In this document: positions 7,942 to 55,356 of the stretch, in pieces
How the letters are laid out: the number at the start of each line of letters is the position of its first letter
How positions within the stretch are numbered: position 1 is the stretch's first letter
Origin: Blautia schinkii DSM 10518
Lineage (GTDB): Bacteria > Bacillota > Clostridia > Lachnospirales > Lachnospiraceae
Direction of reading: 5' to 3'
NCBI GenBank assembly: GCA_000702025.1
Contig: JNKJ01000010.1
Coordinates: 1-64,000, forward strand
Length of the DNA: 64,000 nucleotides
Notes under the pieces: model-generated
Databases searched by the model: none
The model's input: only the letters and a program-made list of their open reading frames with translations
Told to the model about the DNA's origin: nothing
Translations under genes and position numbers: made by a program

Positions 7942-8009
7942 CTACAAAAACTTTGAGAATACCAAAAATATTTTGTATTTTCCTATTGAAATCCCGGAGG
8001 AAGTATGAT
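7942..8009 (+). promoter_or_regulatory. ssnA promoter region with shared 28-bp purine-cluster element
   Basis: Positions 7961-7988 match 25 of 28 bases of an element upstream of ygeX (50051-50078, opposite strand); the shared core is TTTTGTATTTTCCTATTG. A related A-rich half site stands about 19 bp upstream at 7942-7955. TTGAGA at 7953-7958 and TATTTT at 7976-7981 are 17 bases apart and could be -35 and -10; a TATGAT lies at 8004-8009, as it does downstream of the ygeX copy. Further down, CCCC/GGGG can form a small stem in the leader. Function as an operator is inference. Confidence 0.55.
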
Positions 8010-8095
8010 ACATTGATAGTAGAAAATCCCCAAAGACAAGGGGCAAACCTGTCCGGGATTAGGTAATTTTTTACAAAGCAAAAGGAGGATACCAT

Positions 8096-9433
8096 ATGCT
8101 TATTATTGGTAACGGAAGAATGATCACACGGGACGCATCCAACGCATTTATCGAAAACGGTGCTGTTGCAATGGATGGTAACACCATAGTTATGGTGGGG
8201 GTAACTGAAGAGGTTAAGAAGGCTTATCCTGATGCCGAATTTGTGGATGCGAAGGGTGGGGTTATCATGCCCGCGTTCATCAATGCCCATGAGCATATCT
8301 ACAGTTCTTTTGCAAGAGGATTGAGCATCAAGGGATATAACCCGCAGGGCTTCCTGGATATTCTGGACGGCATGTGGTGGACCATTGACCGCCATCTGAC
8401 TCTGGAGCAGACGAAGCTTTCTGCATATGCGACATACATTGATTCGATTAAAAACGGTGCGACAACCGTGTTTGACCACCATGCAAGCTTCGGACACATT
8501 ACCGGTTCCCTGAACGCCATCGAAGAGGCTGCCAAGGACCTGGGTGTACGTACCTGTCTCTGCTATGAGATTTCTGACCGTGACGGCATGGAGAAATCCA
8601 GAGAATCCGTGATGGAGAATGTGAACTTTATCAAACACGCACTTGCGGATGACAGTGACATGATCGCCGGAATGATGGGCATGCACGCATCCTTTACCAT
8701 TTCTGATGAGACGATGGCTCTGTGCAACGAGCTGAAGCCGGAGGGCGTAGGCTACCATATCCATGTGGCTGAGGGAATCTATGACCTGCATCAGTGCCTG
8801 AAGGAGCACAGCAAACGTATCGTAGACCGTCTCTACGACTGGAACATTTTAGGACCAAAGACCTTACTGGGCCACTGTATCTATATCAACGAGCATGAGA
8901 TGGAGCTCATCAAGGACACAGACACCATGGTCGTACATAATCCGGAATCCAACATGGGCAATGCCTGCGGATGTCCTCCAACCATGGCGCTGGTACACAA
9001 GGGTGTGCTTACCGGTCTTGGGACCGACGGCTATACTCACGATATGCTTGAGTCCTGGAAGGTTGCCAATGTGCTTCACAAGCATCATCTCTGTGATCCG
9101 AACGCGGCCTGGGGCGAAGTTCCGCAGATGCTTTTCGAGGGCAATGCAAAGATTGCCAACCGCTACTTCAAGAAAGAACTGGGCGTGCTGAAAGAGGGCG
9201 CTGCAGCAGACGTGATCGTACTTGATTACAACCCGCTTACACCGATGAACGCAGACAATGTAAACGGACATCTGATGTTCGGAACAAACGGCAACAGCGT
9301 TGTCACCACCGTAGGAAACGGCAAGGTACTGATGAAAGACCGTGAGGTTCTTGTGTGCGATGTGGATAAGGTGATGGCTGACTGCCGCCAGGCAGCGAAA
9401 GAGCTGGCTGATGATATTAACAGCGGAAGATAA
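8096..9433 (+). CDS. ssnA: Putative aminohydrolase SsnA
   Basis: This 445-residue amidohydrolase-superfamily protein is of the SsnA type found with selenium-dependent molybdenum hydroxylases. The metal-binding motif NAHEHIYS supplies His65 and His67. Later HIHVAEG, LLGHCIYINEHE and GLGTDGYTHD supply the other conserved His and Asp ligands. Published genetics in gut anaerobes links SsnA to urate/purine breakdown, probably hydrolysing a purine-ring intermediate; the exact substrate is not certain. It has a strong AGGAGG site before the ATG and is the first gene of the plus-strand purine block. Confidence 0.9.
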   Translation: MLIIGNGRMITRDASNAFIENGAVAMDGNTIVMVGVTEEVKKAYPDAEFVDAKGGVIMPAFINAHEHIYSSFARGLSIKGYNPQGFLDILDGMWWTIDRHLTLEQTKLSAYATYIDSIKNGATTVFDHHASFGHITGSLNAIEEAAKDLGVRTCLCYEISDRDGMEKSRESVMENVNFIKHALADDSDMIAGMMGMHASFTISDETMALCNELKPEGVGYHIHVAEGIYDLHQCLKEHSKRIVDRLYDWNILGPKTLLGHCIYINEHEMELIKDTDTMVVHNPESNMGNACGCPPTMALVHKGVLTGLGTDGYTHDMLESWKVANVLHKHHLCDPNAAWGEVPQMLFEGNAKIANRYFKKELGVLKEGAAADVIVLDYNPLTPMNADNVNGHLMFGTNGNSVVTTVGNGKVLMKDREVLVCDVDKVMADCRQAAKELADDINSGR

Positions 9434-24309: not shown

Positions 24310-27300
24310 ATGAAGAGAAAAGAAATATTGAAAAGAGCCATAGCCCTGACGGGTTGTATGGTGATGTGCGTGACATCCATGCCCGTCAGTCTGTTTGCTG
24401 ATCAAGTAGAAGAGACAGTTGTACAAACAGCGCCAGATGGTGGCAGCAGTACAGACAGCGGGGCAGAACCAGGCGGAAATAGTGGCGAATCCGAAAGTAC
24501 CAATTCGGGTGAGAACGACGGTGAGTCTGATAATACTGTGCCGGGCGGGAACGGCGGTGGGGCTGATAATACTGTGCCGGGCGGGAACGGTGATGGGACT
24601 GACGATACCCTGCCGGACGGGTCGGGTAGTGAATCCGGCAATACTGTGCCAGATGGAAACGGCAGTGAATCCGACAATACAGATACAACAGGACCTGACG
24701 GGAATTCAGGCGAACAAGGTCAGGGAGGAAACTCAGGTGGAGAAGACCAGACAGTCACAGACGGTAATACCGATGAACAGCCGGAGGATAAAGAAGAGAA
24801 TAAGGATGAGGAACCTTCCGCAGATTCGTCTGAACCGTCTCGAACAACAGTAATTGACTGGACTAATAATATGGATGTGTTGGGTGTGAGCCTGAACCAG
24901 ATAAACTGGGAAGCAGAAGACAGCTCCGGAAGCTGTCCGCGCAATACCCAGGGACAATGGGATTTGACGTCCTTGTATGAAGCAGCAGAGACAGTGACAT
25001 TAAGCTATTCCGTTTCTATGATAAATGACAGTAAGGAACCCCTGCTGGCCGGAGATACCTTTTCTATCGCCCTGCCCTCAGGGCTGTTTGCCGTAGAGCC
25101 GGATTCCGGGAATTTAAACCCTGAGAAGGAAAAGCCAGAAGCCAGCTATAGTACAGGCTCTTCCAGTGTGCAGGTTACATTAACAGATGCAGTGGAGCAA
25201 GAAGGTTTTAGCGGCTTTCAGGCAACTCTTACGGTAAAGGCAGTACCACTCTCCTATGAACCGGGGGAGACTGAGCGTATTGAAAATATAGTGATGCAGA
25301 GCATGACTGATGACGGTGGAAATCTGATCAGAGAAAATAAAGAAGAATTTTTTCTTCCGGCAAAAGCTTCTGAGGAACCGGATAAGGATGATATCGCACA
25401 GGACAAGCCGGATGGAGAAAAAACCGAGGACGAAAAAACAGATGAGAAACCAGAGGCAGAACCCAAAGATTTGAGCGAAGCGATTTCAGTGGATTTAGCC
25501 GAAGCAGAACTGGAAGTGGCAGAGGATTATTCGGTAGAGCTTCCAATTATTTATACGATTCCGGAGGCTACGGAAATCCAGCCAGAGGATAGTTTTTCAT
25601 TAAAAGTTGATGGAATTTCACTCGTTGACGCGACAGCTACAGCAGCCACAGCAGTGGAGGAGGCATCCTCTGTGGTGCAGACATTAAGCGCAGCAGATGT
25701 TCCCCAAGGTGAACCTGTGGAGTCTGAAACAGACACAGAAATTATAGAGAAACCTGGGGTAAATACTGATATACCGGAAACGCCAGCAGATCCTGTAACA
25801 CCAGAAGACCCTGTAACACCAGAACCCCCTGTGATACCAGAAGACCCCGGAACCTCGGAAACACCAGGAGAGCCAGAAAATCCAGGAACACCGATAGAAC
25901 CAAGAACACCGGGAACAGACACGCCTGGTAGTTCCAATAACGGAAACGGAGATGTAAAAGAACCCGGGACAGGCAGCGATACACAGCCGGAACTGCCGGT
26001 GAAGACGGAGATTTCCGTTGCAGCGCCTGTTGTGGAAGAAAATCAAGTTACTACCGTATTCACAGAACAAGGCAAGGCGGCCGCAGAGCTGCAGGGAACC
26101 ATTCAGCTTCGCGGAACCGTGACAGAAGAGGATGTGAAGAACGGCGAGGCCACATTCTCTATCCAGGGAGCAGCGTACGCAGTAGCGCTGCTGGCACCTA
26201 AGGCGGATGAAAATAGTACGACAGTATCCTTTACGAAGGAATGGATTGGTGCGAGCCCCAAGGATAAATATCCTGATTTGTTAGCGAAAGGGATGATGAA
26301 AGTTTATTACGCCCTGGAGGATGGCGAACCTACAGAGTGGAAGCAAGGAGATTTGGGAATCGATAACTGGGAAAAGAATACGGCTGGAAATATTGGCAAC
26401 TATACAGTGGTTTCCCAAAATCAAGGCGTCGGTTTTGAGACTTATACATTGACAGTGCCGAGTATTTGGAAGGGAAAAGAAGTAAAGTATAGTTTTGATG
26501 AAGATAGAGGGCGCGTAATTGATAACTCTTATATTCCGGCCAATACAGATAGTGATATTGAGGCTAATACATTTTATAATATTGAAAAAACAGCTTTTAA
26601 TGCAAAATTGGAAATACGTGACGGAGATGTGACAAGAGATTTTGATGAATTCTTTAAACCACACCTTATTTTATCAGGGAAAGATATTGATGGAACGGAG
26701 AAAAATTGGCCGCTTTCAGACTTTTTTGAAGCAGATGTATCTGTAAAAGGTAATATATTGACAATTGAGAATCTTCCGTCTTTTACAAAAAATCAGGAAG
26801 AAATTATTTACAGTTTAAAAGTAAACGGAACAATTCTCGTGGATGACGGCACAGAGGATTATTATGACCCCACTTATGATAACCAGAGTGCACCAAACTT
26901 CGGAGATGTCACAGATACCTGCCATAATGGAGGTAAGCTGGTTCTTTTGCTGAAAGGAGAAACTTCCTATACGGGAACAAAGGAGTGGATTGATGACGGA
27001 TCAGATACGACAAAAGCTTCCAGACCGGATGCAACTCTCTATCTATGGAGATATTCCGGAGCAGGCTCGGATTATACGACTGCTTCTCAGGTAAAAGATC
27101 CGGAGAATGAGAAAGATAATGTAAGCTGGCCATTGCACCCAGCAGAGTACAATGAAGAAAAAATTACCAAAGATAGCTTACCTAAGTATGACCCAGAGGG
27201 TAATAAATATACATATTTTGCAAAAGAGATTTTGTCCGGCAATAATGTTGGAGGTTATGAACAGGTATTGGGAAAAATCACCGAAGGTTTTAATGGACAG

Positions 27301-30300
27301 GCAGTTATAACTGATACCTATAAAGGTCCGAAAGTTGATAGACGACGACCGGACGGTGACGATTCCTTATACGATACCGGAGTTTTAAGTAACAGGCGTG
27401 TGGGAACAATCCCTCTTGAGGTTACAAAAAAATGGGAGGCAGCATCTTTCCAGGACCAATTAGAAGGGATTACTGTTAAGATGACACTGCAAGCCAGACC
27501 TGCGGGGTCAGAGGATGAGTGGAAAGACGTTGGAGCCTATGAGTTAGGTGGCTTCTTTGCCGAGCAGATGACGAAAACTTTGACAATAAGTGCCTCTCAA
27601 TTTGACGAATTTGGAGAAGAATTGGAATACCAGTGGGCAGAGTCCGGCGTGGAACAGATTATCAATGGAGTTCCACAGGAGAGGGATTTTGATACAACTG
27701 ATAAAACATTTACTCTTTACCAGAGTGAAGAAGGAGAATTTGGTGACGTACATTATCAATCAAGCTATGATGACAAGGAACAAGTAATTACGAACCGTAT
27801 CGTGGAGACTACGGATTATACCGTAGAAAAGCATTGGAAAGGTACTGCCGGGGATAAAATTCCTCCGGAACAGAACCCTAATTCCGAAGTTACAATTATC
27901 CTCTATAGAAGTGATGATGATTCCAAACCATATGCAGAATTTACTATGGACGGAAATATAGAGAGTGTGAAAAGTAGCCTGGGAGATTCAGTAAAAGGCT
28001 ATGGACAAGAAACGGCTCCTTATCTCATGCAATTTACCGACCTTCCCAAGTACGATGAAACAGGGCACAGGTATACTTATATTGCGGAAGAGAAACCCTT
28101 TAGCGTCGAAGGTCAGCCTTGGCACACCACATATAAGTATGATGTGAAAGCGAGAAAAGCGGATATTACCAATGAACCTACCGGAAAAGGTCCTATCATC
28201 CGCGTACGAAAAAAATGGATTGATGACAGCGACGAATCACATCGTGTCCCTGTTAAAGTTCAGGTTTATAAGAAAGGCACAGATGTAGCAGTCGGCAATC
28301 CGGTAACTTTAAACAGCTCAAATAATTGGTGGGCAGAGGTTTCAGTGGACGAAGATACTACGACAAATGATTACTATATCCGTGAGCTTCAAACGAAAGA
28401 GTTATGGGGCCAAAATGGAAGCCAGGAAGATGAAATAGGGCAGCCATTCGTTAATGAGAGCTATGCAAATTCGGCCCATCATAAATATGTGGTTACATAT
28501 GATGATAAGCCGGATGAGCGCGGGATGTTATGCGTAACAAACCGGAGAATTGGGCTTGTTAATTTAACAGTAAAAAAGGAATGGGTAGATAAGGATAATA
28601 ATAATAATCGGCCAACTGATTTGCAGTTGAAGTTATATTGTCAGGAAAAAGAATGGGAGCAGGCAATTGACTATGATCATGGGACCATAAAACTTGGCAA
28701 CGATGTTATGCAGATAATGACAGTTGGTGCCGATGGTAATTTAGTATCAGGTAAAGCAATACAACCTGTAGAACATGATCAAAGTAACAATACCTATACC
28801 TATTATTTTTACAATCTTCCAAAGTATGATGATAAAGGAAAAGTTGTCCATTACTATATTGCAGAGGAAGAAAAAGATAAATCAGGTTCAATTGCTGCCA
28901 ATGAGTATGCGAATCCAGTCATTAGCTACGGTGATTATAATCCGGGAAAAAACAATGATGACCCTGATACCCAGGAGATAACTGTTACCAATAAAAAAAG
29001 CGATATAAAACCCATAAAGTTTTATAAATTATGGAAAGATGTCTATTCTTATGAACAGGGCAAGCGTCCGGATATTTATTTGGATTTATGGAAAATAGAC
29101 AGTGAAAGCAATGAGCCGCAGAAGGTTACAGCAAATTATCTGTGGACACGAGACGACAATCCATCAAACAGTGATTACAAGTGGACCTGCGATTTTAGCG
29201 AGCTGCCCAAATATGATGCAAACGGAAAAGAAATCATTTATTACGCAGAAGAAAAAACTCATGTGGAAGCGGGGGCCCTGGACTATGATACTTCTGTGAA
29301 GGCTGTTTTGGATACGGATGGGGAATATATATCAGAGTATCCCTCAAACTCCAAGTCGAAAAATGAAATAGCTACGGTAGGAGAAAAAACATTATTAAAA
29401 GAGGGCGGAACCTTCGTCAATAAAATGAAGGGATTCATTACAATTAATGGTAAAAAAGTATGGAAGAATATTCCTTCTGGAATGCCCTTTGAAGATTTTC
29501 CCGGACTGACGATTAATGCCAGTCGTTCCATTGAAAAACCAACGGCAAATAAAACCACCATTGATGTACAACAGCTCGTAAAATTGGTTAAACCGGGAAT
29601 CAGGCCATTATTGATAACACCTATGCAGACAAACTTTGCCAATTCCACTTCGGGTTCCTGGGAGGAAATCGCATGGACGGAATTAACCAATGAAGACAGG
29701 GTGCATGGAACCAATGATTTTACATTTAAAATGGATAAAAAGGGAGACAATAATAATCCTGATATAGTAGAATCCACAGATAAGCTGGAAAAATATGATA
29801 AAGACGGAAACCTCTATTACTACAAGGTGGAAGAAACAGTAACTGATGCAAGTAATTTAAATGGAACAACTTATGAAGAATTGCCAGGTAAAGTTAATAA
29901 TTTTATCATTACCAATGTCTATAATACGGAAGGAGGGAATACAGGAACTTTAACAGTAAACAAAACCTGGGAGGGAATCCAGGGGACTGACCTTAATGTA
30001 AAGTACCAATATCCTACAGTAAAGTTTACCTTATGGCGTAATTACGAATCAAATGCGTCTGACAGCGACAAAGTAAAAGTCACGTCGCAAGATGAAGAAG
30101 TAGGCAGGGAATATCTTGGAACCAGTAGTGGTGCGTCAGGGAATGTAGAGTTTACGGATTTGTTAGTTACAGCTCCTAACGGTAAGAAATATAACTATTG
30201 GGTAGTAGAAGAAGTGCTGAATGGCTACGAAACTACAAATGGAATCGACACTAGTATTATAGAAAAATCGACACCCGTAACATTGGAAAAAACAAACACC

Positions 30301-33300
30301 GATTTAACTTCTGCTGAATATGCTGCAAGTGTTACTTTTAAAAATGTCTATGAGCCCAAAAAAGAAAAGGTTTCTCTGACAGGTAAAAAGAAATGGGATG
30401 ACAATAGCAATGCCTTTGGTACACGCCCATCTCCGGAGGCGTTTAAGAAGAACTATACAATTTACCGTTACGCGGATAAGCAGAGAGGCGAGAATGGGGC
30501 ACCTGCAATAAAGGATGAGGATATTACCAATAGTCTACAGGGGACATCAGATACGGCTGATTATTATCTTAAGTGGGAGGAGAATCCAGATACAGACCCA
30601 GATACTTGGACATATACCATTTCAAATCTGGAACGCTATGCGCCCAACAGTATGCCGTGGAAGTATAAGATTGTCGAAAAGAAGGTCGAAGGATACGATA
30701 ATTCGGATAAACTGACCATAGACTCTGAAAAAGGATCATTGGATGAGAATGGCAATATCACCATGCCTACATGGACGAACAAAAATCTAAAGTCTGCAAA
30801 GATTGTCAAGCAGTGGGATAAAGATGATTATGGTTTGCGTCCGAGAACAATTGAGGTGGAGCTTTGGATACAATTAAGGGATGCTTCTGAATCTTCTAAA
30901 TCTTCTGAATGGAAAAAGGCATCAGCGGTATTTGGTGATTTTGGAGACAAAGGCAAGAAAATAACCACAACAGCGACAATTAATTCTGGGGGCTCAGACA
31001 CATGGGAGTATACATTTGAGAATCTTCCTGCATATTTAGAAGAATCAACCGGCAAAACAATAGTATCCTGTAATTATCAGATTGTGGAGACAAAAGTTGG
31101 AAATTATATGGTAAACGGGTCAGATGGGAAAAATACGGAAGTTTCAGTTTCCAACGATGGTGTAAGTTATCCAAGGGTGGGACCGTATCAACCCCAAAGC
31201 GGTAAGCCAGATTTGAAACAGGCACTTGATACGACTACTATAACAAATGAGTATGGTGCGGATACGAAATATGTGAAGATTACAAAGTCCTGGGTAAGCG
31301 ATTCAGAGAACTATTATTCTACAAGACCAATGGACGGGAATGCTTGGTATGCGGACTTTGCTCTATTGTATAAAACAAAAGACAGTCAGGATGCATGGTC
31401 GCAGTATCAGAATGAGGCGGGCAATGATATTATCCTTCGCGTGAAAGGGGGAAATAACGAAGACATAGTTTCAATGAAATTTGGACCATTTCCGAAGTAT
31501 GATACCGACGGAAATGAATATAGATATGCTGCGGTAGAGATAGACCCTAAGACGAAAAGCAATTATACAAAAAAGGAAATCATTGAGGCTGATGGCACCG
31601 ATGTAAGTTCTGATGTAACACTCACAAAAGAGCTAAATAAGAATGTACCAGTTTCAGGAACAGAAATTGACGGAAATGATATAAGTACATATCCAACAAC
31701 AGTTTCCACTACGAATACTCTGCAGACAACCAAGCTTATTATTACGAAAAAATGGTCAGATGATACAACGGAAAAATTCCGTCCGGAGAACATTGAAATC
31801 AGCCTTAAAAAGAAAATTAAAGATGACCAAGACGGGAAGCTGACAAATGTTCCTATGAAGCAGCTAAACTGGGAGAAGAAAGAGAATACCTGGACGGCAA
31901 CCATAGAAAATCTTCCAGCATACGATAAGGATGGAAAGCGTTATGAATACATTGCAGAGGAAACACCATTATCTAATTATCAGTCCCCGGTAATTTCTGA
32001 CGTAACGGTAGATACGAGCATTGAGACAGGTGAAACCCTCACCATTACTAATACAATATCTGAGTTTAATATAGCGAAGATATTAAAGGATGGAGAGAAT
32101 GAAGCGGAACTGCCTGTAGGTGCAAGGCTTGAGATTTACAAAGCATCAGGAGGCACCGCTAATGGTGAGGCAGTGGCTACATGGGAATGCATTGGTGATG
32201 GTAATAATTCTGCAAAAGTAATCACAAAAGTGTATAAAGACAATGTAACCATATGGACTGAGACAGCTTCTATCAGCGCTGCCCCTGCCAAGGGTGTTAT
32301 CAAAGGCTTGGATGCAGGAACTTATATCCTCCGGGAAACAAAAGCCCCGGCAGGCTATGAGACAGCCGCAGATATCTCGTTCAGACTAGAGGCAGACGGA
32401 AAAACAATAAGTTCTTCAACGACAAATACTGTATCTAAGGACAGCAATGGTATTTCCTGCATTAGTATGACGGATCAGAAGGCAGCAGTCAAAATAACAA
32501 AGGTAGACCTAGAAGAAGAGGAATTGAAGGATGCGGTATTCACCATTACGGGCAAATTTGCCAATAATGAGGGCGAGCAGGATTTATCACCAGATGCGGC
32601 AAATGCCGCAGGCTACTTGATTTCTTCTAATGCGTTAAATCCGGAGCATATTTACACCTTAACAGAGACAACAGCTCCAGATGGCTATATTAAGGGAACT
32701 CCTATCACTTTCTGGGTAGATAATGATGGCGAGGTGTATATTGCAGACTATAGCGACTTGTCCGACAACAAACCGATTGCTACAGTAAAGGATAGTACTT
32801 CCGATACAATCATCTATCGAAACGCTCCAATCCAGATATCTCTTGAGAAGTATGGAAAGAGTGGGGAGACAACAGGGCCTTTAGCTGGCGCAGTATTTAC
32901 GCTTATAGATAAAGGAACGAATGGAAATGGTACAGATATATTGTCGGAGGAAGTACAATCAAGTAATGAAAAAATTATTTTAAAGGACCTTATCCAGGGA
33001 CACCACTATACTCTTAAGGAGACAACAGCTCCAGATGGTTTTATCCTCCCGGATGAAGAGTCCAACCGCACCTATAGTTTTAAAGTGACCGAGGAAGGAA
33101 AGGTTGAAGAACTTCATGGACCTGAAGGTTTCTACGAACTGAACTCTGATAGTACTTTGATAAGGGTTTACAATAATCCTATTAAAATTAATTTAGTAAA
33201 AAGAGACAAACCCAGCGGAGAGGGAATTAAAGGGACAATCTTTACATTGAAAGATACCTTATCTACTGGAGATGGCAAGAAAGTAGAAACAAACGCCAAC

Positions 33301-36300
33301 GGAGAGCTTACATTTGGAGGGCCGGAAGATGGCTTAATTCAGGGACATACCTATACACTAACAGAGACACCTGCAACCGGCTATGACTTGCCAGAAAATA
33401 AATTTGTCATTACATTTAATGTAAAGGCAAATGGAACAATTGAAATAACCGAAGTAATAGATGGAAATGGAAAAAAAGAAAACGTTATTGATACCGGTGT
33501 TTCGGGGGAAGGAAATCCAATTATTTATGTAGAAAACGTGAGACAGCAAGGCACTGTAGAAATCCTTAAGGTGGATGCGGATGACATTAGTAAAGAGCTT
33601 TCTGGAGCGGTATTCCAGCTTCAGAAGAAAAATACTGATGGAGTATATGTAAATATTGGCGACGTTGTTACTACAGATAATGATGGTAAAGCACGCATCG
33701 AAAACCTTGAATGGTGCGAGTATAAAATAAAAGAAGTGACACCCCCATCTGGATATGCCCTTAGCGAGACTGAGTTTGCATTTACTATCAGTGCGACATC
33801 TCTGCATGCTTCTTATACGGATGCCGCTGGAAATAGCGCTTTCAAAAATGAAAAAACAAATGTACAAATTTGCAAAAAGGCAGAGGAGGGTGATAGTGAT
33901 TCATCCCTGGATGGTGCAAAGTTCGCAGTATACGAGTTTGATAAAGAAAAGAATGAAATTACGGGGAATCCAATTTGGCAAACCCAAGAGGATTCTGCAC
34001 CCGGAACTACGCAGTTAAGCGGTATCCTTTCCGTAGATACCTATTATGCTATCGTAGAAACAAGTGCACCAGAGGGCTATGAAAAGCTTGAAAACTATGT
34101 AGTTATAAAACTCAACAAAAAAGGTGCATGTGAATATTTTGATAATAGCGGAGAAAAACGCTGGACAGTGAATCCGCCCGTGACTAATGCAGCAATGCAG
34201 CGAGCAGTTGCTCTTGTTACAGTAACCGCCACGGATACCCTGTTCAACGTAGACCTGTACAAGGTGGCAGACGGGAAAACTCAAGAAAATAAAACCTTCC
34301 TGAAAGGTGCAGAACTGACAGTTACCGGAGTATTTAAGGACTATGAAGAACCTAAGCTTACTGCCAAATCAAAGACTTCCGCAAACCCAGATGTTACTGC
34401 AATTACTATTAATGCGGAAAACTTTGATAAAAGACCACTCAAGGATAAGCTCCTTGCCGATGAAACTTACACTATTACGGAAACTACTGCACCCACAGGC
34501 TACACCAGATTCACAGGAACAATTACCTTCAAGCTGAATGAATATGGACGGATTTCTGAATGCAAGATTACGCAAAATGGAAAAACGGAGGACTACCAAA
34601 CAGCTAATTATTCCGACAAAGCTATCTGGATTCACGATACACCGTTGGAAACAGCCAATGTTCATCCGCAGATACGCAAGATGGATGATGCAGGCAAGCC
34701 TATACAGAATATTTCTTTCACTTTGAAAGGAAAGCTTAACGGTTCACCTACAAAGCAGAAATTAACCTCTGACGAAAACGGTAATCTCCTGACGGATGAG
34801 CTTCTGGCAAAAATGCATGTAGGGGAAACCTACACTTTGGAGGAAATCTACACAGAATCCTCCCCATATGAAAAATTAACAGAAGCTATACAATTCCGGA
34901 TTGAGGATGACGGAACCATTAAGCTTGTGAAGAATACTCAAAAGGCAGCAAAGGCTGTGGAAAATGTTCTGGAAATTGAGAATATCAGAACAAGCTTCAA
35001 TATCAGCAAAGTTGACGAAAACAACCAAGCACTTACCGGAGCGGAACTGACTATTTATACCAATCATTCCAAGAACGGAGTGGAGCAGCCCAAGGATATC
35101 GCAAAGGATTTAGAAGGAATACAGCTTCAGTGGACAACCACAAAGGCGCCGAAGACAGTTATCGGACTTGCCGTAGGAACCTACTGGCTGATAGAAACAA
35201 AGACCCCAGATGGATATCTGACAGCAGACCCGGTAAAATTTGTACTCAAAGCTGACGGAACGATTTCTTCGGTAAGTACAGCAGAAAGTACAACAGTTAT
35301 TGCAGAAAATAGCCTGAGCATTACCATGAAGGATAAAGAAGTACGGGGCCATGTAACACTTACTAAAAAAGAAACCGGAACAGAGACAGGAATCAATGGC
35401 GCAGAATTTACCCTGTATAAGCTTACTAATGAGTCAAAGAGTCCCAATCCTGACGAAGACCTGAAGATTGCAGAAAAACTTACGACAGCAGACGCTACAG
35501 TATCCCCGGGAACAGAGCAAAGAGCATTGACGGATTCATCAACGTCTGGTATCTGGAGCAGTCAGAATAGTGAAACGACAAATAGCGATACAAATAAGCC
35601 GCTGAAAGAAGGCCTACGTGCAGGAACCTATTATTTTGTAGAGACAAAAGCTCCTGACCACTACCAGCTCGACAGCACACCGTCAAAGATATTCACGATC
35701 AAAGGAGACGAGACGGAGACGACATTATCTGACAGTGTACGCACAACTGTTGTTACGAATCCCACAGAAACAGTGGTGGTGGAAATTACCAACAGCCTGA
35801 TATCCGCGCAAGAGCATCAGCGTTTCCTTACCATATATAAGGAGGACGCAGAAAACCAAGAAGCACTGTCTGACGCTGTATTTACTTTGGAAAGAGTCAA
35901 GGACATGGACGGAAAGGCCTTGGAAAATCCAGAACCAGTAATGGTTAATGGCATGGTAGAAGTAAAAACAGTTATCGGAGCAGAGGGGAAAGCATCGATT
36001 ACCTTTGGTCCGCTGACAGACAAAGGAACTTATCGACTGACAGAAATAGAAGCTCCGGATGGCTATGCATTAGAACGGACAACACGGGAATATGATGTAA
36101 TAGTAACCGACCACAAGGCAGGAGACTTAGAGTCTTGGGAGGGTAACGTAAGCGGTGATAAAATCCAGTTATTCCTTCTGGAAAAAGATACTAAAAATCC
36201 GGTAAAGGATAATACACTCAAAAACCAGCGTCTAACCGGAAGTGTAAGCCTGAAAAAAGTAGATGAGGACGGAAAAACAGGACTTAATGGTGTAGCCTTT

Positions 36301-38877
36301 AAACTTCTGTATCAGGCAGAAGGTGCAGCAGACTTCCAGGAAATTAAGAATTCCTTCCTGACAGGCAAGTCCTATAGCCTCACGGATGGAACGACTTGGG
36401 ATATGGAGACTGTACAGTCAGATGTGCAAGAGGAAACTCTTGAAGAGAGCGAAGCAGGAATGCTGAAGATTTCTAATCTGGCCTGGGGAACCTACCGTCT
36501 GCAGGAGACAAAGCAGCTTCCCGGCTACATCAACAAGTCGGAAGTCTTTGAATTTAAAATCGGAGAGAAGCAACCACCAGCTAATGACGGTCAGAAGCCA
36601 GCTAACACCGGCCAAGAACCAGCCAACGGTGGCCAGGACACAGCCAACGGCCCTCACCACATTCTAAATGTGACAACAGGCTACGGCACAGACGGACAGC
36701 CCACATGGGAAGAGAGTACCAAAGGCAATACACTATGCATCACAAATGAAAAGACAAGAGTATCCTTCATCAAACGTATGAAAGATGAGACAGAAGGACT
36801 GCCAGGTATGACAGGCGCAAAATTTACCATTGAAGGTAAATTCGCAGATAAGCCTGAGGAGAAGGCTGCAAAGGAATTTACAACAGGTTTGACAACGGGC
36901 TTTAATGCAGACGGAGAGCCGGAAGAAAGTCAAGAGGCGGATCCGACGGTATTAATCACAGGCCTTCTTATCGCAGGAGAGCAATACACCCTCACGGAGA
37001 CGAAAGCCCCCGAAGGTGCAGTTCCGGCCAACAATTTCCAGGTGACCTTCACCATGAATGAGGACGGAACCCTGACAAAACTGGATGAAAAGCAGCCGGA
37101 CAATACCAAGTCTGATGCTGTGGCAAAGCTTACCACCTCTGCAGATGGTTCTGATCCGGCAATGATCACAGTGTCTGATGCTCCTGTCACCATGAAAGTA
37201 TTTAAAATGGGAACAGATACGGTGGGGAGCGGCTCAGACAACGAGCCACTCCTGAAGGAATGTACCTTTGAAGTGACCGGACGATTCGCACCTGACCGCG
37301 GACTTTATCAAAAGCCACAGAAGGCAATAAGACTGGCAGGCGTCAGAGCTGCTTCAAATGTATCTGGCAATCAGGGCGGAGAGGAAACCATCACTGTAAC
37401 CACGACCGGAAATGACGATGAGGAAGTTTACAATGCACTTTCCGGAAGGCTGATTATCGGAGAAACCTACAATATTAAAGAAATCACGCCTCCTGATGGC
37501 TATGCTGTCGGTATGGATGTAAACTTTACTATTGGTAAGAGTACGGATGACACCGGGAAAGTAACTACGAAAATCGAATTGGACAACCAGAATAATAATT
37601 ATGAAATCACCCAGGATAAAGATGGAAATCCTGTCATTACCCAGCGTGACAACCCAGTAGGGCTTAAGCTTCACAAGATAGGAAGCAACCGCCCGGATGG
37701 CCTGAACGGAGCTACATTCACCCTTACAGGTGTGAAACTGGTAGATGGTAAACAGACGGAAGAACTGGGATCTCAGGAGTTAGTATCCTCTGCAGTGGAG
37801 GATGAATCCAAGGAAAAGGATGGATGGATTGACCTGACAGGAAAGGTAAATGAGACAAACACGGTAAATGGAGTAACCACAGAATACCGCTATACTCTTA
37901 AGGAGACACAGGCACCATCCAGCTACAGCAGGGCAGAGGAGTTTACGTTCCGTCTGGTGAGCGTGCAGGGAGAGGGAGATAAAATCCCTGAAAGCCGCTT
38001 CGAATTGTTGGATAAGGATGGAAATCCTGTCAGCTACGGAAGTGATGGCAAATACCCGGCACCATATGCATATCTTACAAGAACCGCCGAGACAGTAAAC
38101 TTGAATGGCAAGGATGTGCAGATTGATGTTATCTCAATCACGAACCAATACAATCCGCCCGTCTATGTGGACAGCCACACGGTGGAAAAAGTATGGGATG
38201 ATAAGGATAACGAAGCCGGCAAGCGTCCGGGCAGCATCCAGGTGAAGCTTCTGGATGAGAAAAACCAGGATGTGTCTTATGCACCTGTAGCTACATTGGA
38301 TGAAAGTAACGGTTGGAAATACACCTGGTATGGACTGTCGAAATATAACAGCTACCAAGCAGTAGAGGTGACGGATCTTAAAGATACGGGATATACGGCA
38401 GAGATGGATACGCAGGGGAATAAGACTGTGATTATGAATACTTATAAAGCTGCAGAGCTAAGCCCCATTCCGACACCGGAAATTACGCCTACGGTCAAAC
38501 CGGAGCAGAGTGTAACGCCGACACCGACTCAAAATCCAGCAAAACCTACCGCTACACCAACGCCAACCAATAAGCCAGGGAAGCCTACGGGTACTCCGAA
38601 ACCGTCAGGCGCGCCGGGAGCAACCGCTACACCAACGCCGACAACAGCCCCAGGCTCCTCCGGCGGAAATGGAAGTGGAAACGGAAGCGGCGGCAGTGGA
38701 AACGGCAGCAGTTCAGGAAACTACTATGGAACGGACAGTGGCAGCACTACAACCCAGAAAACCCCGACAAAAACAGGGGATGAGACAAACACGATGCTTT
38801 ATCTGTTTCTGCTTCTGGTTTCAGGAGCAGCCATTACAGGCTTTCGGCATAAAACACGCCGTAATGAAGAAAAGTAA
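24310..38877 (+). CDS. Giant Cna-B repeat surface adhesin with C-terminal anchor
   Basis: The 4855-residue protein starts with a signal peptide (about 1-30). A Gly/Asn/Asp-rich repeat region (about 51-144), an N-terminal domain (about 178-350), acidic and Pro-rich linkers (about 478-541) and a short conserved block follow. From about 637 to 2580 there are about 13 Cna-B modules of the K-x-W...LPKYD...Y-x-x-E type. From about 2583 to 4615 there are about 15 SpaA-like modules with GTYxLxETxAPxGY signatures. One last Cna-B module begins near 4621. A Pro/Thr stalk (about 4719-4778) and a Gly/Ser linker lead to TPTKTGDE, a hydrophobic helix and a basic tail, a sortase-type signal with a non-canonical motif. 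The Lys/Glu pattern predicts isopeptide-locked, protease-resistant domains. No sortase is in the window. Ligand unknown. Confidence 0.93.
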   Translation: MKRKEILKRAIALTGCMVMCVTSMPVSLFADQVEETVVQTAPDGGSSTDSGAEPGGNSGESESTNSGENDGESDNTVPGGNGGGADNTVPGGNGDGTDDTLPDGSGSESGNTVPDGNGSESDNTDTTGPDGNSGEQGQGGNSGGEDQTVTDGNTDEQPEDKEENKDEEPSADSSEPSRTTVIDWTNNMDVLGVSLNQINWEAEDSSGSCPRNTQGQWDLTSLYEAAETVTLSYSVSMINDSKEPLLAGDTFSIALPSGLFAVEPDSGNLNPEKEKPEASYSTGSSSVQVTLTDAVEQEGFSGFQATLTVKAVPLSYEPGETERIENIVMQSMTDDGGNLIRENKEEFFLPAKASEEPDKDDIAQDKPDGEKTEDEKTDEKPEAEPKDLSEAISVDLAEAELEVAEDYSVELPIIYTIPEATEIQPEDSFSLKVDGISLVDATATAATAVEEASSVVQTLSAADVPQGEPVESETDTEIIEKPGVNTDIPETPADPVTPEDPVTPEPPVIPEDPGTSETPGEPENPGTPIEPRTPGTDTPGSSNNGNGDVKEPGTGSDTQPELPVKTEISVAAPVVEENQVTTVFTEQGKAAAELQGTIQLRGTVTEEDVKNGEATFSIQGAAYAVALLAPKADENSTTVSFTKEWIGASPKDKYPDLLAKGMMKVYYALEDGEPTEWKQGDLGIDNWEKNTAGNIGNYTVVSQNQGVGFETYTLTVPSIWKGKEVKYSFDEDRGRVIDNSYIPANTDSDIEANTFYNIEKTAFNAKLEIRDGDVTRDFDEFFKPHLILSGKDIDGTEKNWPLSDFFEADVSVKGNILTIENLPSFTKNQEEIIYSLKVNGTILVDDGTEDYYDPTYDNQSAPNFGDVTDTCHNGGKLVLLLKGETSYTGTKEWIDDGSDTTKASRPDATLYLWRYSGAGSDYTTASQVKDPENEKDNVSWPLHPAEYNEEKITKDSLPKYDPEGNKYTYFAKEILSGNNVGGYEQVLGKITEGFNGQAVITDTYKGPKVDRRRPDGDDSLYDTGVLSNRRVGTIPLEVTKKWEAASFQDQLEGITVKMTLQARPAGSEDEWKDVGAYELGGFFAEQMTKTLTISASQFDEFGEELEYQWAESGVEQIINGVPQERDFDTTDKTFTLYQSEEGEFGDVHYQSSYDDKEQVITNRIVETTDYTVEKHWKGTAGDKIPPEQNPNSEVTIILYRSDDDSKPYAEFTMDGNIESVKSSLGDSVKGYGQETAPYLMQFTDLPKYDETGHRYTYIAEEKPFSVEGQPWHTTYKYDVKARKADITNEPTGKGPIIRVRKKWIDDSDESHRVPVKVQVYKKGTDVAVGNPVTLNSSNNWWAEVSVDEDTTTNDYYIRELQTKELWGQNGSQEDEIGQPFVNESYANSAHHKYVVTYDDKPDERGMLCVTNRRIGLVNLTVKKEWVDKDNNNNRPTDLQLKLYCQEKEWEQAIDYDHGTIKLGNDVMQIMTVGADGNLVSGKAIQPVEHDQSNNTYTYYFYNLPKYDDKGKVVHYYIAEEEKDKSGSIAANEYANPVISYGDYNPGKNNDDPDTQEITVTNKKSDIKPIKFYKLWKDVYSYEQGKRPDIYLDLWKIDSESNEPQKVTANYLWTRDDNPSNSDYKWTCDFSELPKYDANGKEIIYYAEEKTHVEAGALDYDTSVKAVLDTDGEYISEYPSNSKSKNEIATVGEKTLLKEGGTFVNKMKGFITINGKKVWKNIPSGMPFEDFPGLTINASRSIEKPTANKTTIDVQQLVKLVKPGIRPLLITPMQTNFANSTSGSWEEIAWTELTNEDRVHGTNDFTFKMDKKGDNNNPDIVESTDKLEKYDKDGNLYYYKVEETVTDASNLNGTTYEELPGKVNNFIITNVYNTEGGNTGTLTVNKTWEGIQGTDLNVKYQYPTVKFTLWRNYESNASDSDKVKVTSQDEEVGREYLGTSSGASGNVEFTDLLVTAPNGKKYNYWVVEEVLNGYETTNGIDTSIIEKSTPVTLEKTNTDLTSAEYAASVTFKNVYEPKKEKVSLTGKKKWDDNSNAFGTRPSPEAFKKNYTIYRYADKQRGENGAPAIKDEDITNSLQGTSDTADYYLKWEENPDTDPDTWTYTISNLERYAPNSMPWKYKIVEKKVEGYDNSDKLTIDSEKGSLDENGNITMPTWTNKNLKSAKIVKQWDKDDYGLRPRTIEVELWIQLRDASESSKSSEWKKASAVFGDFGDKGKKITTTATINSGGSDTWEYTFENLPAYLEESTGKTIVSCNYQIVETKVGNYMVNGSDGKNTEVSVSNDGVSYPRVGPYQPQSGKPDLKQALDTTTITNEYGADTKYVKITKSWVSDSENYYSTRPMDGNAWYADFALLYKTKDSQDAWSQYQNEAGNDIILRVKGGNNEDIVSMKFGPFPKYDTDGNEYRYAAVEIDPKTKSNYTKKEIIEADGTDVSSDVTLTKELNKNVPVSGTEIDGNDISTYPTTVSTTNTLQTTKLIITKKWSDDTTEKFRPENIEISLKKKIKDDQDGKLTNVPMKQLNWEKKENTWTATIENLPAYDKDGKRYEYIAEETPLSNYQSPVISDVTVDTSIETGETLTITNTISEFNIAKILKDGENEAELPVGARLEIYKASGGTANGEAVATWECIGDGNNSAKVITKVYKDNVTIWTETASISAAPAKGVIKGLDAGTYILRETKAPAGYETAADISFRLEADGKTISSSTTNTVSKDSNGISCISMTDQKAAVKITKVDLEEEELKDAVFTITGKFANNEGEQDLSPDAANAAGYLISSNALNPEHIYTLTETTAPDGYIKGTPITFWVDNDGEVYIADYSDLSDNKPIATVKDSTSDTIIYRNAPIQISLEKYGKSGETTGPLAGAVFTLIDKGTNGNGTDILSEEVQSSNEKIILKDLIQGHHYTLKETTAPDGFILPDEESNRTYSFKVTEEGKVEELHGPEGFYELNSDSTLIRVYNNPIKINLVKRDKPSGEGIKGTIFTLKDTLSTGDGKKVETNANGELTFGGPEDGLIQGHTYTLTETPATGYDLPENKFVITFNVKANGTIEITEVIDGNGKKENVIDTGVSGEGNPIIYVENVRQQGTVEILKVDADDISKELSGAVFQLQKKNTDGVYVNIGDVVTTDNDGKARIENLEWCEYKIKEVTPPSGYALSETEFAFTISATSLHASYTDAAGNSAFKNEKTNVQICKKAEEGDSDSSLDGAKFAVYEFDKEKNEITGNPIWQTQEDSAPGTTQLSGILSVDTYYAIVETSAPEGYEKLENYVVIKLNKKGACEYFDNSGEKRWTVNPPVTNAAMQRAVALVTVTATDTLFNVDLYKVADGKTQENKTFLKGAELTVTGVFKDYEEPKLTAKSKTSANPDVTAITINAENFDKRPLKDKLLADETYTITETTAPTGYTRFTGTITFKLNEYGRISECKITQNGKTEDYQTANYSDKAIWIHDTPLETANVHPQIRKMDDAGKPIQNISFTLKGKLNGSPTKQKLTSDENGNLLTDELLAKMHVGETYTLEEIYTESSPYEKLTEAIQFRIEDDGTIKLVKNTQKAAKAVENVLEIENIRTSFNISKVDENNQALTGAELTIYTNHSKNGVEQPKDIAKDLEGIQLQWTTTKAPKTVIGLAVGTYWLIETKTPDGYLTADPVKFVLKADGTISSVSTAESTTVIAENSLSITMKDKEVRGHVTLTKKETGTETGINGAEFTLYKLTNESKSPNPDEDLKIAEKLTTADATVSPGTEQRALTDSSTSGIWSSQNSETTNSDTNKPLKEGLRAGTYYFVETKAPDHYQLDSTPSKIFTIKGDETETTLSDSVRTTVVTNPTETVVVEITNSLISAQEHQRFLTIYKEDAENQEALSDAVFTLERVKDMDGKALENPEPVMVNGMVEVKTVIGAEGKASITFGPLTDKGTYRLTEIEAPDGYALERTTREYDVIVTDHKAGDLESWEGNVSGDKIQLFLLEKDTKNPVKDNTLKNQRLTGSVSLKKVDEDGKTGLNGVAFKLLYQAEGAADFQEIKNSFLTGKSYSLTDGTTWDMETVQSDVQEETLEESEAGMLKISNLAWGTYRLQETKQLPGYINKSEVFEFKIGEKQPPANDGQKPANTGQEPANGGQDTANGPHHILNVTTGYGTDGQPTWEESTKGNTLCITNEKTRVSFIKRMKDETEGLPGMTGAKFTIEGKFADKPEEKAAKEFTTGLTTGFNADGEPEESQEADPTVLITGLLIAGEQYTLTETKAPEGAVPANNFQVTFTMNEDGTLTKLDEKQPDNTKSDAVAKLTTSADGSDPAMITVSDAPVTMKVFKMGTDTVGSGSDNEPLLKECTFEVTGRFAPDRGLYQKPQKAIRLAGVRAASNVSGNQGGEETITVTTTGNDDEEVYNALSGRLIIGETYNIKEITPPDGYAVGMDVNFTIGKSTDDTGKVTTKIELDNQNNNYEITQDKDGNPVITQRDNPVGLKLHKIGSNRPDGLNGATFTLTGVKLVDGKQTEELGSQELVSSAVEDESKEKDGWIDLTGKVNETNTVNGVTTEYRYTLKETQAPSSYSRAEEFTFRLVSVQGEGDKIPESRFELLDKDGNPVSYGSDGKYPAPYAYLTRTAETVNLNGKDVQIDVISITNQYNPPVYVDSHTVEKVWDDKDNEAGKRPGSIQVKLLDEKNQDVSYAPVATLDESNGWKYTWYGLSKYNSYQAVEVTDLKDTGYTAEMDTQGNKTVIMNTYKAAELSPIPTPEITPTVKPEQSVTPTPTQNPAKPTATPTPTNKPGKPTGTPKPSGAPGATATPTPTTAPGSSGGNGSGNGSGGSGNGSSSGNYYGTDSGSTTTQKTPTKTGDETNTMLYLFLLLVSGAAITGFRHKTRRNEEK
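24529..24672 (+). repeat. 36-bp tandem repeat inside the adhesin gene, four units
   Basis: Four 36-bp units start at 24529, 24565, 24601 and 24637; the first two are nearly identical. They encode 12-residue units such as DNTVPGGNGGGA. Such in-frame repeats can change copy number by slippage. Confidence 0.8.
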
Positions 38878-41677: not shown

Positions 41678-43054
41678 ATGAGGACACATCAGACGGATTT
41701 TTCCAGTGGAAGTGTGTACAAAAATATTTTGGAAGTAGCTGTGCCGATGACGATCGCACAGCTTTTAAATCTTTTATATAATATTGTAGACCGTATGTAT
41801 TTGGGCAGGATACAGGGCACAGGGGCATTGGCGCTCACAGGAGTGGGACTCTGCTTCCCGATTATTACCCTTATTGCCGCATTTACTCTTCTTTTCGGAA
41901 ACGGAGGCGGGCCGCTGTGCGCGATTGAGCGGGGGCGCGGTAACGAGGAGGAAGCGGAGAAGCTGATGGGAAATACGTTCACCATGCTGCTGCTCACAGG
42001 TGCCGTGCTTACGGTGCTGGGACTTTTAGTTTATAAGCCGGTGCTTTATGCTTTTGGGGCCAGTGACGTGACATTTCCCTATGCCGGAGCGTATATCCAG
42101 ATTTACCTTCTGGGTACTGTGTTTGTGATGATTTCTGTGGGTATGAACCCGTTTATCAACAGCCAGGGCTTCGGAAATATCGGGATGCTTACCGTGCTGA
42201 TTGGTGCTGTGCTTAATATTATACTGGACCCTTTATTTATCTTTGTGTTTCATATGGGTGTGCAGGGCGCGGCAATTGCGACGATTTTTTCTCAGTTCTG
42301 CTCTGCAGTGTGGGTGCTCAAATTCCTTACCGGAGAGCGTGTGTCCCTGAAGCTTCGCAGGGCAGCGATGAAAATCTCCTGGGAGCGCGTGGGCAGGATT
42401 GTGGCATTGGGTTTTTCCGGTTTTATCATGGCGTTTACAAATGGTCTGGTACAGATTGCATGTAATGCTACATTGCAGATTTACGGCGGTGATCTGTATA
42501 TCGGTGTGATGACGGTGCTGAATTCTGTAAGAGATATCTTTACCATGGTGGCCCAGGGTATCACGAACGGAGCTTCACCTGTGATGAGCTTTAATTACGG
42601 GGAAGGGCAGTATGGCAGGGTGAAGCAGGCCATTCGTTTTACCACGGGATTTACTGTGGCATATACGCTTCTTGCCTGGGGGATATTGAGGATTTTCCCG
42701 GAGTTTTTTATCCGGCTTTTCAATGCGGATGCGGAGCTCGTCAAGGCAGGTGTGCCGGCGCTTCATATCTATTTCTTTGGATTTTGTTTTATGGCGCTCC
42801 AATTTTCCGGACAGTGTGTATTTACTTCACTGGGAAAAGCGAAGAAAGCCGTGTTTTTTTCCATCTTCCGCAAGGTGGTAATTGTGGTTCCGCTTACACT
42901 TCTCCTGCCGAGGTTCGGAGGTCTTGGAGTGGATGGAGTGTTTTGGGCAGAACCAATCTCAAATCTGATTGGGGGAACTGCGTGTTTTGTGACAATGCTG
43001 GTGACAGTTCTGCCAGAGCTTAGAGCGGGGGCTTTACAAGGAGGTAACAGCTGA
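41678..43054 (+). CDS. MATE family efflux transporter
   Basis: This 458-residue membrane protein has about twelve hydrophobic segments. The MATE opening VYKNILEVAVPMTIAQLLNL and the DRMYLGRI segment are recognisable, as is the internal repeat of two six-helix halves (second half with MAFTNGLVQIACNA). It would export drugs or organic cations using a Na+ or H+ gradient. The ATG at 41678 has GAGGTG upstream; an earlier in-frame ATG at 41651 lies right behind the -10 box. Its stop overlaps the ATG of the following V4R gene. Confidence 0.9.
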   Translation: MRTHQTDFSSGSVYKNILEVAVPMTIAQLLNLLYNIVDRMYLGRIQGTGALALTGVGLCFPIITLIAAFTLLFGNGGGPLCAIERGRGNEEEAEKLMGNTFTMLLLTGAVLTVLGLLVYKPVLYAFGASDVTFPYAGAYIQIYLLGTVFVMISVGMNPFINSQGFGNIGMLTVLIGAVLNIILDPLFIFVFHMGVQGAAIATIFSQFCSAVWVLKFLTGERVSLKLRRAAMKISWERVGRIVALGFSGFIMAFTNGLVQIACNATLQIYGGDLYIGVMTVLNSVRDIFTMVAQGITNGASPVMSFNYGEGQYGRVKQAIRFTTGFTVAYTLLAWGILRIFPEFFIRLFNADAELVKAGVPALHIYFFGFCFMALQFSGQCVFTSLGKAKKAVFFSIFRKVVIVVPLTLLLPRFGGLGVDGVFWAEPISNLIGGTACFVTMLVTVLPELRAGALQGGNS

Positions 43055-43641
43055 TGGCTAATATTTTTTTTGAGGAACCTCATCATATATTTACATGGAA
43101 TAAGCTTGGAAATGTGAAGGAAGGGCGGACAGATTTAGGTGAAGAGATGCCGGTCATTGTTTACCGGCTGCTAGAATATACCATGAATCATGTGCTTGCG
43201 CAGGAGTTCGGTGTGGAAAAGGCTGATGAGCTTTTTCGAAAGGCAGGATATTTAGCGGGAACTGAGTTTGCAAAAAATGTCCTCGATTTAACTCAGGGGA
43301 TGGATGCGTTTATTGCAGAGCTTCAGAAATCCCTTAAGGATCTGCGGATTGGGATTCTACGTATTGAGGAGATGGAAGAGGACGGAGCGCATATTGTGCT
43401 TACTGTGGCTCAGGATCTGGACTGCAGCGGACTGCCGCCCACCAATGAGGTGGTTTGCAACTATGATGAGGGATTTCTTGCAGGAATTCTGGAGGCTTAT
43501 ACGAAAAAGCCATATAATGTAAGAGAAATTGACTGCTGGGCAAGCGGGGACCGTGTGTGCCGCTTCCGCTGCAGCGCGGCAGACTGTGAAGGATGCAGGA
43601 GGTGCGCGCCGGATGGAGGAGACAGCGGAAATTCTTTTTGA
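43054..43641 (+). CDS. V4R-domain protein
   Basis: This 195-residue protein has an N-terminal helical part and, from about residue 105, a V4R-type small-molecule-binding domain. It includes EVVCNYDEGFLAGILEAYT, the REIDCWASGDRVCRF block and a terminal CEGCRRC cluster. V4R domains bind ligands or metal and often regulate attached output domains. Here the output is probably the GGDEF protein of the next gene, which overlaps this one by 29 bp. The ATG overlaps the MATE stop and follows AGGAGG. Ligand unknown. Confidence 0.8.
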   Translation: MANIFFEEPHHIFTWNKLGNVKEGRTDLGEEMPVIVYRLLEYTMNHVLAQEFGVEKADELFRKAGYLAGTEFAKNVLDLTQGMDAFIAELQKSLKDLRIGILRIEEMEEDGAHIVLTVAQDLDCSGLPPTNEVVCNYDEGFLAGILEAYTKKPYNVREIDCWASGDRVCRFRCSAADCEGCRRCAPDGGDSGNSF

Positions 43642-47176: not shown

Positions 47177-47192
47177 ATACAAATTTTTTTGG
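47177..47192 (-). promoter_or_regulatory. Possible weak copy of the purine-cluster box before ygeW
   Basis: The minus strand reads CCAAAAAAATTTGTAT, close to the CCAAAAATATTTTGTAT core found before ssnA but one base shorter. It lies about 70 bp before ygeW in AT-rich DNA, where chance matches are common. Confidence 0.3.
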
Positions 47193-47231
47193 AAACCGTA
47201 GCGCACTACAAAGTCCCTTCACTCATGAGTC

Positions 47232-50025: not shown

Positions 50026-50097
50026 ATCATACCATAAAAAATGGAATTTGCAATAGGAAAATACAAAAATTTTTAGGTTTTTCAAAAAATATTTAGG
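50026..50097 (-). promoter_or_regulatory. ygeX promoter with shared 28-bp purine-cluster element
   Basis: On the minus strand TTGCAA (50053-50048) and TATGAT (50031-50026) are 16 bases apart, about 60 bp before ygeX. Directly upstream and partly overlapping, 50078-50051 matches 25 of 28 bases of the ssnA-side element. A second related box, CCTAAATATTTTTTG (50097-50083), lies 20 bp further up, giving two boxes two helical turns apart. Confidence 0.65.
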
Positions 50098-55234: not shown

Positions 55235-55321
55235 CAAAAACTCCTCCTCACTTAGTTGGATTAGCCATCTAGGCTGCTAAATATACTATAGCACAGTTGA
55301 AACGAAATAAAAAGGATTTTA

Positions 55322-55356
55322 ACAAAAAAATTGTGAAAAGCTAAAAGAAATTGTAT
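55322..55356 (+). promoter_or_regulatory. Possible paired A-rich boxes before dihydropyrimidinase
   Basis: ACAAAAAAATTGTG (55322-55335) and CTAAAAGAAATTGTAT (55341-55356) lie about 19-20 bp apart, like the paired boxes before ssnA and ygeX. The match is weaker and the area is AT-rich. Confidence 0.35.

Follow-up and report, generated by a model that had tools for sequence, protein, structure and literature searches.

Tandem palindromic boxes before ssnA and ygeX of Blautia schinkii, a candidate operator of a YheO-type regulator of purine genes

The window, i.e., the whole stretch of 64,000 nucleotides of Blautia schinkii DSM 10518 that was analyzed, carries a purine cluster in two halves. One half starts with ssnA, which is followed by ygfK, the Se-dependent xanthine dehydrogenase (XDH) and xdhA/B/C. 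The other starts with ygeX and continues leftwards from 49966 with ygeY, ygeW and arcC. Beyond ygeX, a gene for a YheO-type regulator is arranged divergently from a hyuA gene. Between the two halves, an open reading frame of 4855 aa (24310-38877, plus strand) with 12 SpaA-type and 3 Cna_B-type stretches encodes a giant surface protein, and a V4R-domain reading frame overlaps a GGDEF reading frame (43054-44875, plus strand). The features considered in this study are listed in Table 1.

Table 1. Genes, promoter elements and putative operator boxes in the window
Feature	Position	Strand	Evidence
ssnA putative operator box 1	7943-7958	+	TACAAAAACTTTGAGA; paired-box scan of the window, rank 2
ssnA putative operator box 2	7962-7977	+	CCAAAAATATTTTGTA; paired-box scan; kept in genus relatives
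ssnA -35 TTGAAA	7986-7991	+	consensus scan; kept in genus relatives
ssnA -10 TACATT with TG extension	8009-8014	+	consensus scan; conserved
ssnA, first gene of one uric-acid cluster half	8096-9433	+	NCBIfam
Single box before ygeW (doubtful)	47178-47193	-	paired-box scan of the window
ygeX (diaminopropionate ammonia-lyase), which starts the second cluster half	48737-49966	-	NCBIfam
ygeX -10 TATGAT with TG extension	50026-50031	-	consensus scan; relatives
ygeX -35 TTGCAA	50048-50053	-	consensus scan; relatives
ygeX putative operator box 2	50062-50077	-	paired-box scan; relatives
ygeX putative operator box 1 (upstream box)	50082-50097	-	paired-box scan of the window, rank 1; relatives
yheO-type regulator (PAS_6 + HTH_22), proposed binder	54599-55237	-	Pfam; co-occurrence; predicted fold
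Weaker two-box site, yheO/hyuA divergent gap	55321-55355	.	gap p value 0.003; third in the window scan, inside the shuffle range
hyuA (dihydropyrimidinase type), divergent from yheO	55418-56881	+	Pfam amidohydrolase; name from context and from the label in an earlier note

The sequences at 7961-7988 (plus strand) and 50078-50051 (minus strand) agree at 25 of 28 positions and share an identical 18-base core. An earlier note on this DNA had reported this likeness between two sites 42 kb apart, and it was confirmed. In the whole genome (6,679,327 bases, about 6.68 Mb, in 65 contigs), exact copies of the core are found at these two places only, both in the purine cluster, while one place (contig C15) has one mismatch and three places have two. 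When up to three mismatches were allowed, the core occurred at 32 places, versus 13 for the pattern read backwards. Within the window it occurred three times (twice exactly, and once with three mismatches at 9666) against 0.08 expected, and this number was equaled in none of 100 shuffles.

A symmetric matrix of the 16-base box (12.2 bits) was trained on 50 rows of ssnA and ygeX sequences from the genus, and pairs were searched for with a box spacing of 19 or 20 bp permitted. The putative operator unit consists of two palindromic boxes, each about YWAAAAATTTTTWGR, with starts 19-20 bp apart. The related A-rich box, which had been noticed about 19-20 bp upstream of each site, is real: in the paired-box scan of the window, ygeX (31.5) and ssnA (25.4) took the first two ranks, followed by the hyuA/yheO gap (13.5). 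Because the maximum from 30 shuffles of the window was 15.7, the last of these is by itself not significant at the window scale. The 28-bp element that had been proposed as the unit is replaced by the two palindromes; it corresponds to the downstream box (box 2) and the start of the -35 hexamer, so that its last three bases at ssnA are the first three of TTGAAA. Outside the genus, some boxes come close to a perfect palindrome, CTAAAAA(W)TTTTTAG, as in G148 and G113, and once two palindromes had been recognized there, both the 28-mer and a single palindrome at 7955-7982 were given up as the unit. Across the genus, the tandem pair of boxes at the ygeX promoter is followed by TTGCAA, a spacer of about 16 bases and TATGRTATGAT, and an automatic pattern matched 25 of the 30 loci. 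A TATGAT is present downstream at both sites, as had been pointed out, but it is not the same element in the two: it forms the predicted -10 of ygeX (TTGCAA-16-TATGAT), whereas at ssnA it overlaps the conserved -10, TACATT (TTGAAA-17-TACATT). With the Rfam gathering scores as cut-offs, the window gave no matches, and a known RNA element in the leaders was rejected on this ground.

The earlier note had made its proposal depend on conservation of the element upstream of ssnA and ygeX in relatives, and this conservation was found. In the genus, 34 of 60 genomes, including our own, were over the family cut-off for ssnA; 30 ssnA loci were fetched (the other four were not), as were 30 ygeX loci from 29 of the 34 genomes. 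With the matrix, which had been trained on these same sites, a -35 TTG starting 7-9 nt past box 2 was detected in 27 of 28 ssnA upstreams (best pair sought anywhere; two more of the 30 ended at a contig end) and in 28 of 30 ygeX upstreams. The single miss at ssnA was a second-type copy in G262. The two at ygeX were in G303, where the gene is a second copy, and in G298, the only genus genome whose single ygeX is without the site, and one that is also without a detected yheO. For other genera, 42 ssnA upstreams were used (43 of 250 family genomes were over the cut-off, the 43rd being our own), and 28 of them contained the paired site at p<=0.01. Among these 28, TTG[AC] lay 7-9 nt past box 2 in 22 and 6-9 nt past it in 25, and any other 3-nt offset window held at most 2. 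As nulls, every upstream region was resampled 200-300 times with a first-order Markov model. The genomes in all of these counts are relatives of one another, which makes the counts non-independent. Real intergenic gaps were also used as controls. In the genus, the median of the targets was 23.8 (training sites included) versus -7.0 for 68 control gaps (maximum 13.0), and in the family it was 25.2 versus -7.0 for 95 control gaps. The site was missing from 3 of the 21 family targets, all of which were hyuA gaps lacking yheO. The highest family control (22.4) stands before a pbuX-type permease, and the control set therefore contained a likely true site.

At both ssnA and ygeX, the boxes are kept across the genus while the surrounding sequence varies, and the pairing at 19-20 bp and the flanking C/G letters recur across relatives. 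The two promoters could still be alike because one was copied to the other when the cluster split, with no present function. In 9 of 10 genomes of other genera, the yheO-ygeX arm faces ssnA across one gap, so that a single ancestral site may have given rise to both of those seen here. However, a copy without function is already disfavored by the conservation of the boxes within varying surroundings, and the unlinked permease and purE promoters described below carry boxes too; we find this explanation scarcely credible.

A profile of the two boxes and the -35 (R1) was built from 41 genus ssnA and ygeX sequences, with our own two sites among them. In our own genome it scored 51.4 bits at ygeX and 45.8 at ssnA, and then 19.2 (E 0.01) at C21:80830. 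Only ygeX and ssnA stand out, and the next place is before a purine permease; the motif is thus not scattered genome-wide, which was the other point on which the earlier note had let its proposal hang. The yheO/hyuA gap scored 15.1 bits (E 0.19) and is not separated from several other places at 15.0. With a second profile (R2), from which own-genome sequences were deliberately left out for the permease and yheO/hyuA, the permease (30.5), ygeX (25.6) and ssnA (23.5) were at the top, followed by C9:255638 (18.4), and the yheO/hyuA gap scored 14.3 (E 0.47). The best R2 scores in three yheO-less genomes were 15.0-16.4, and that in G278, which has yheO, was only 16.7, about level with them.

Weaker versions of the element had been described before the dihydropyrimidinase gene and before ygeW. 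The former is present as a two-box site between yheO and hyuA, but it is weak in this genome; in the genus, a pair was detected in 12 of 29 yheO/hyuA gaps at p<=0.01 and in 22 of 29 at p<=0.05. The latter did not hold up. It is a single box, and a comparable one was found in just 3 of the 9 genomes checked, our own included, so it was rejected as an operator for lack of conservation.

The site at C21:80830 precedes the gene of an NCS2 permease, which is over the cut-off of the NCS2 superfamily and scores 382 bits for the pbuX family, below the cut-off of 414. An orthologue of this permease (E<=1e-150) is present in 17 of 24 genomes with ssnA versus 0 of 8 without it. The held-out permease upstreams contained the paired site in 12 of 17 cases at p<=0.01 and in 14 of 17 at p<=0.013. 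The three without the site are L275, L277 and L278. The best pair of L265 is shifted upstream by about one box relative to the aligned pair. At L215 (1577-2956, minus strand; G000:C21), the permease gene adjoins a CspBA/CspC germination protease-like gene, which is below the cut-offs of those families.

The purE gene is present in all of the 30 genus genomes searched. In a sample of 18 genomes with yheO and 12 without it, which was hand-chosen and uncorrected for relatedness, the purE upstream pair was detected at p<=0.01 in 9 of 18 versus 0 of 12 (Mann-Whitney p 0.0005) and at p<=0.05 in 14 of 18 versus 1 of 12; four yheO-containing genomes thus showed no purE site at p<=0.05. In at least five yheO-less genomes (G253, G301, G265, G254 and G263), the TTGACAGAAA promoter element of purE is kept and the boxes are absent.

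Other sites were observed at various genes. The pair at C9:255638 (L322; also L363 and L364) lies at the start of a gene for a 633-aa NAD(P)-binding Fe-S-like protein, which adjoins genes that appear by eye to be hydrogenase-related. The protein (E<=1e-150) is found in 3 of 30 genomes, with a pair near the start in all three (p 0.003-0.010), and it stays a lead because the gene occurs in so few; electron supply for reductive uric-acid breakdown is a possible role. A RidA-like gene (by eye) is preceded by a pair in G250 (L325, 2141-2174), and in G148 another (by eye) is flanked by arcC and ygeW (L151, 13254-13634). RidA would dispose of the aminoacrylate that YgeX produces. In G278, a site (L326, 2179-2211) stands before an ABC transporter gene that looks nucleoside-related by eye. 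A box-like pair between rex-like and ABC-F-like genes (by eye) in G302 and G260 (L327 and L328) may be a Rex site instead.

The YheO of the window has an N-terminal YheO-like PAS domain (PF08348; 122.2 bits, cut-off 27) and a C-terminal HTH_22 domain (PF13309; 72.6 bits, cut-off 29.6), and toward the C terminus it hardly varies from genus to genus. In the predicted model (mean pLDDT 82), a PAS core is accompanied by helices of the C-terminal region, which lie between 144 and 209. A fold search gave, among the 50 matches listed, PAS/LOV domains and, lower down, PAS-HTH regulators of the VqmA kind, with TM-scores by query length of 0.28-0.39, so the likeness is no more than that of a general fold. 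A sequence search against solved structures gave one weak, unrelated-looking match (E 0.032).

In 9 of 10 neighborhoods of other genera, yheO lies between ygeX and ssnA in the same direction as ygeX, facing ssnA. It was found with at least 51% identity in 36 of the 42 ssnA-containing genomes of other genera, and the presence of the boxes was associated with it. The pair before ssnA (p<=0.01) was detected in 21 of the 23 genomes in which yheO is adjacent, in 7 of 13 with yheO elsewhere and in 0 of 6 with none, i.e., in 28 of 36 with yheO versus 0 of 6 without it (Fisher p 0.0006). The best pair scores in the ssnA region of two yheO-less genomes were 3.6 and 9.8. Where yheO is not adjacent to ssnA, 11 of the 12 genomes fetched (from 13 such genomes) showed a pair scoring at least 15 in the gap that precedes yheO. 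G084 has yheO and no clear site before it. Of the 60 genomes of our own genus, 31 have both ssnA and yheO, 3 have ssnA only (G264, G298 and G306, which are 82, 88 and 66% complete), 2 have yheO only and 24 have neither.

These counts also bear on the explanation that the A/T tracts are mere UP elements of strong promoters, without any dedicated regulator. The location of box 2 (about -60 to -45) and its composition are similar to those of the UP-element consensus. However, the strongest sites of our own genome are at purine genes, the upstreams of yheO-less genomes (6 of ssnA and 12 of purE) are without the site at p<=0.01, and the pairing and the flanking letters recur, all of which makes this explanation very improbable.

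In a scan of named genomes, the closest yheO relatives among the best 80 of 585 were in Blautia (e.g., B. wexlerae), and the same yheO was also found among them in Hungatella, Enterocloster, Anaerocolumna and Flavonifractor. From these best 80 of 585 loci, 77 upstreams were scored (3 were too short), and the pair was detected in 62 at p<=0.01 and in 73 at p<=0.05. At p<=0.01, it was present in 5 of 14 Blautia-type, 19 of 21 Oscillospiraceae-like and 38 of 42 other loci; the first and last groups overlap the genomes used above, and the Oscillospiraceae-like group is new. As a paralogue control, we took the upstreams of 14 further genes of YheO-like proteins (27-45% identity) and of two second copies (58-60% identity, in G202 and G148). 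None of these 16, the second copies included, had a site at p<=0.01, and 5 had one at p<=0.05, which makes the shuffle null somewhat lenient. Our best reading is that the putative YheO operator extends over the Lachnospiraceae and, via the yheO-side sites, the Oscillospiraceae.

The boxes may instead be bound by some other regulator that was co-inherited with the cluster. Co-occurrence and neighborhood do not amount to binding, the purE sites would also suit a general purine regulator, and yheO lies about 0.8-0.9 Mb from ssnA in G287 and G250, where both genes are present. In addition, both promoters of G264 (82% complete) carry boxes although no yheO was detected in it, and this genome is the exception to the absence of boxes at p<=0.01 where yheO is absent. 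On the other hand, a site precedes yheO even where this gene lies elsewhere. The genes shared by the neighborhoods were scanned for DNA-binding domains, the smaller shared groups being covered in part, and the most shared gene without a match in the window (8 of 10 neighborhoods) was a permease in the two members scanned. CodY fits poorly: a CodY box was rejected with 4-5 mismatches of 15 at the three sites against the consensus AATTTTCWGAAAATT. Another regulator therefore seems unlikely to us, and YheO, which had been guessed as the binder, is the best candidate by neighborhood and co-occurrence.

Conservation and specificity, together with the occurrence of the boxes at purine genes outside the cluster and alongside yheO, support the earlier view of a purine-regulon operator. 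The boxes are probably the operator of a YheO-type (PAS_6-HTH_22) factor for purine uptake and anaerobic degradation of uric acid and purines, which most likely acts as an activator. Each palindromic box would be occupied by one YheO dimer, so that two dimers would be neighbors immediately before the -35, with the PAS domain sensing a purine-linked signal. The center of box 2 is about 52 bp before the expected transcription start, and the fixed distance between box 2 and the -35 suggests that YheO most likely activates by contact with RNA polymerase, by which ssnA and ygeX would be switched on.

The same operator and the same protein may also serve for repression that is released by a purine, with YheO autorepressing yheO. 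CfiR, a PAS6-HTH relative, is reported to repress its neighbor gene (PMC4519771, in part). Box 2 of the permease promoter seems, by eye, to overlap the -35, which suits repression too, and in other genera the layout with yheO is divergent. However, the boxes of ssnA and ygeX lie wholly upstream of the -35 with a fixed spacing, which is the usual place of an activator, and geometry alone modestly favors activation over repression at these two genes. Repression is a possibility to be taken seriously, although we lean against it.

The proposal may tentatively be widened, in the sense that a single YheO-type PAS regulator could run the whole purine economy of gut Clostridia: uptake by pbuX-type permeases, reductive uric-acid breakdown (the ssnA and ygeX arms and hyuA), de novo synthesis through the purE operon and electron supply by the NAD(P)-binding Fe-S protein of three genomes, all by tandem palindromes at a fixed promoter distance, with a purine or one of its breakdown products as the signal for the PAS domain. 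Gut bacteria with the cluster have been reported to help lower host uric acid (PMC12507026, in part). With a candidate regulator and operator, the control of gut uric-acid breakdown becomes directly testable; this would tell when gut bacteria switch on the breakdown, which bears on gout, and it offers a candidate DNA target and ligand class for the little-studied YheO family.

PucR of Bacillus subtilis is a dedicated regulator of purine catabolism, as is proposed here for YheO, but it belongs to a different protein family and serves an oxidative pathway. The papers of Liu et al. and Kasahara et al. are said to be the founding ones on the gut uric-acid cluster. In the open-licence literature, with passages of PMC12507026, PMC2276186, PMC10717218 and PMC4519771 included in the scope, no YheO-type purine regulator was described in titles or abstracts, and one may be reported elsewhere; for DauR, the matches listed from the same literature held nothing of use. 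The nearest known protein is CfiR (Cj1387c) of Campylobacter jejuni, which has the same two kinds of domain, PAS_6 (PF08348) and HTH_22 (PF13309), as the YheO of the window. In the parts of PMC4519771 considered, CfiR is a repressor tied to flagella, whereas the neighborhood of the window YheO is that of purine degradation, and cj1387c orthologues are commonly linked to a RidA/L-PSP gene, a link that has a counterpart in the RidA-like gene (by eye) of the G148 cluster. The main text of that paper gave no matches for 'binding', 'palindrom' or 'inverted repeat', and in this respect CfiR offers no operator for comparison. The reductive uric-acid clusters of E. coli and C. difficile have the same enzymes, SsnA, YgfK, YgeW, YgeX, YgeY and HyuA, as the part of PMC12507026 considered indicates; its main text gave no matches for the word 'regulator'. 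The pathway is thus already known (PMC12507026), and what would be new is the regulon and operator of a known kind of regulator: a Crp site is mentioned for the E. coli cluster in that paper, whereas a YheO-type regulator with its own operator is proposed here.
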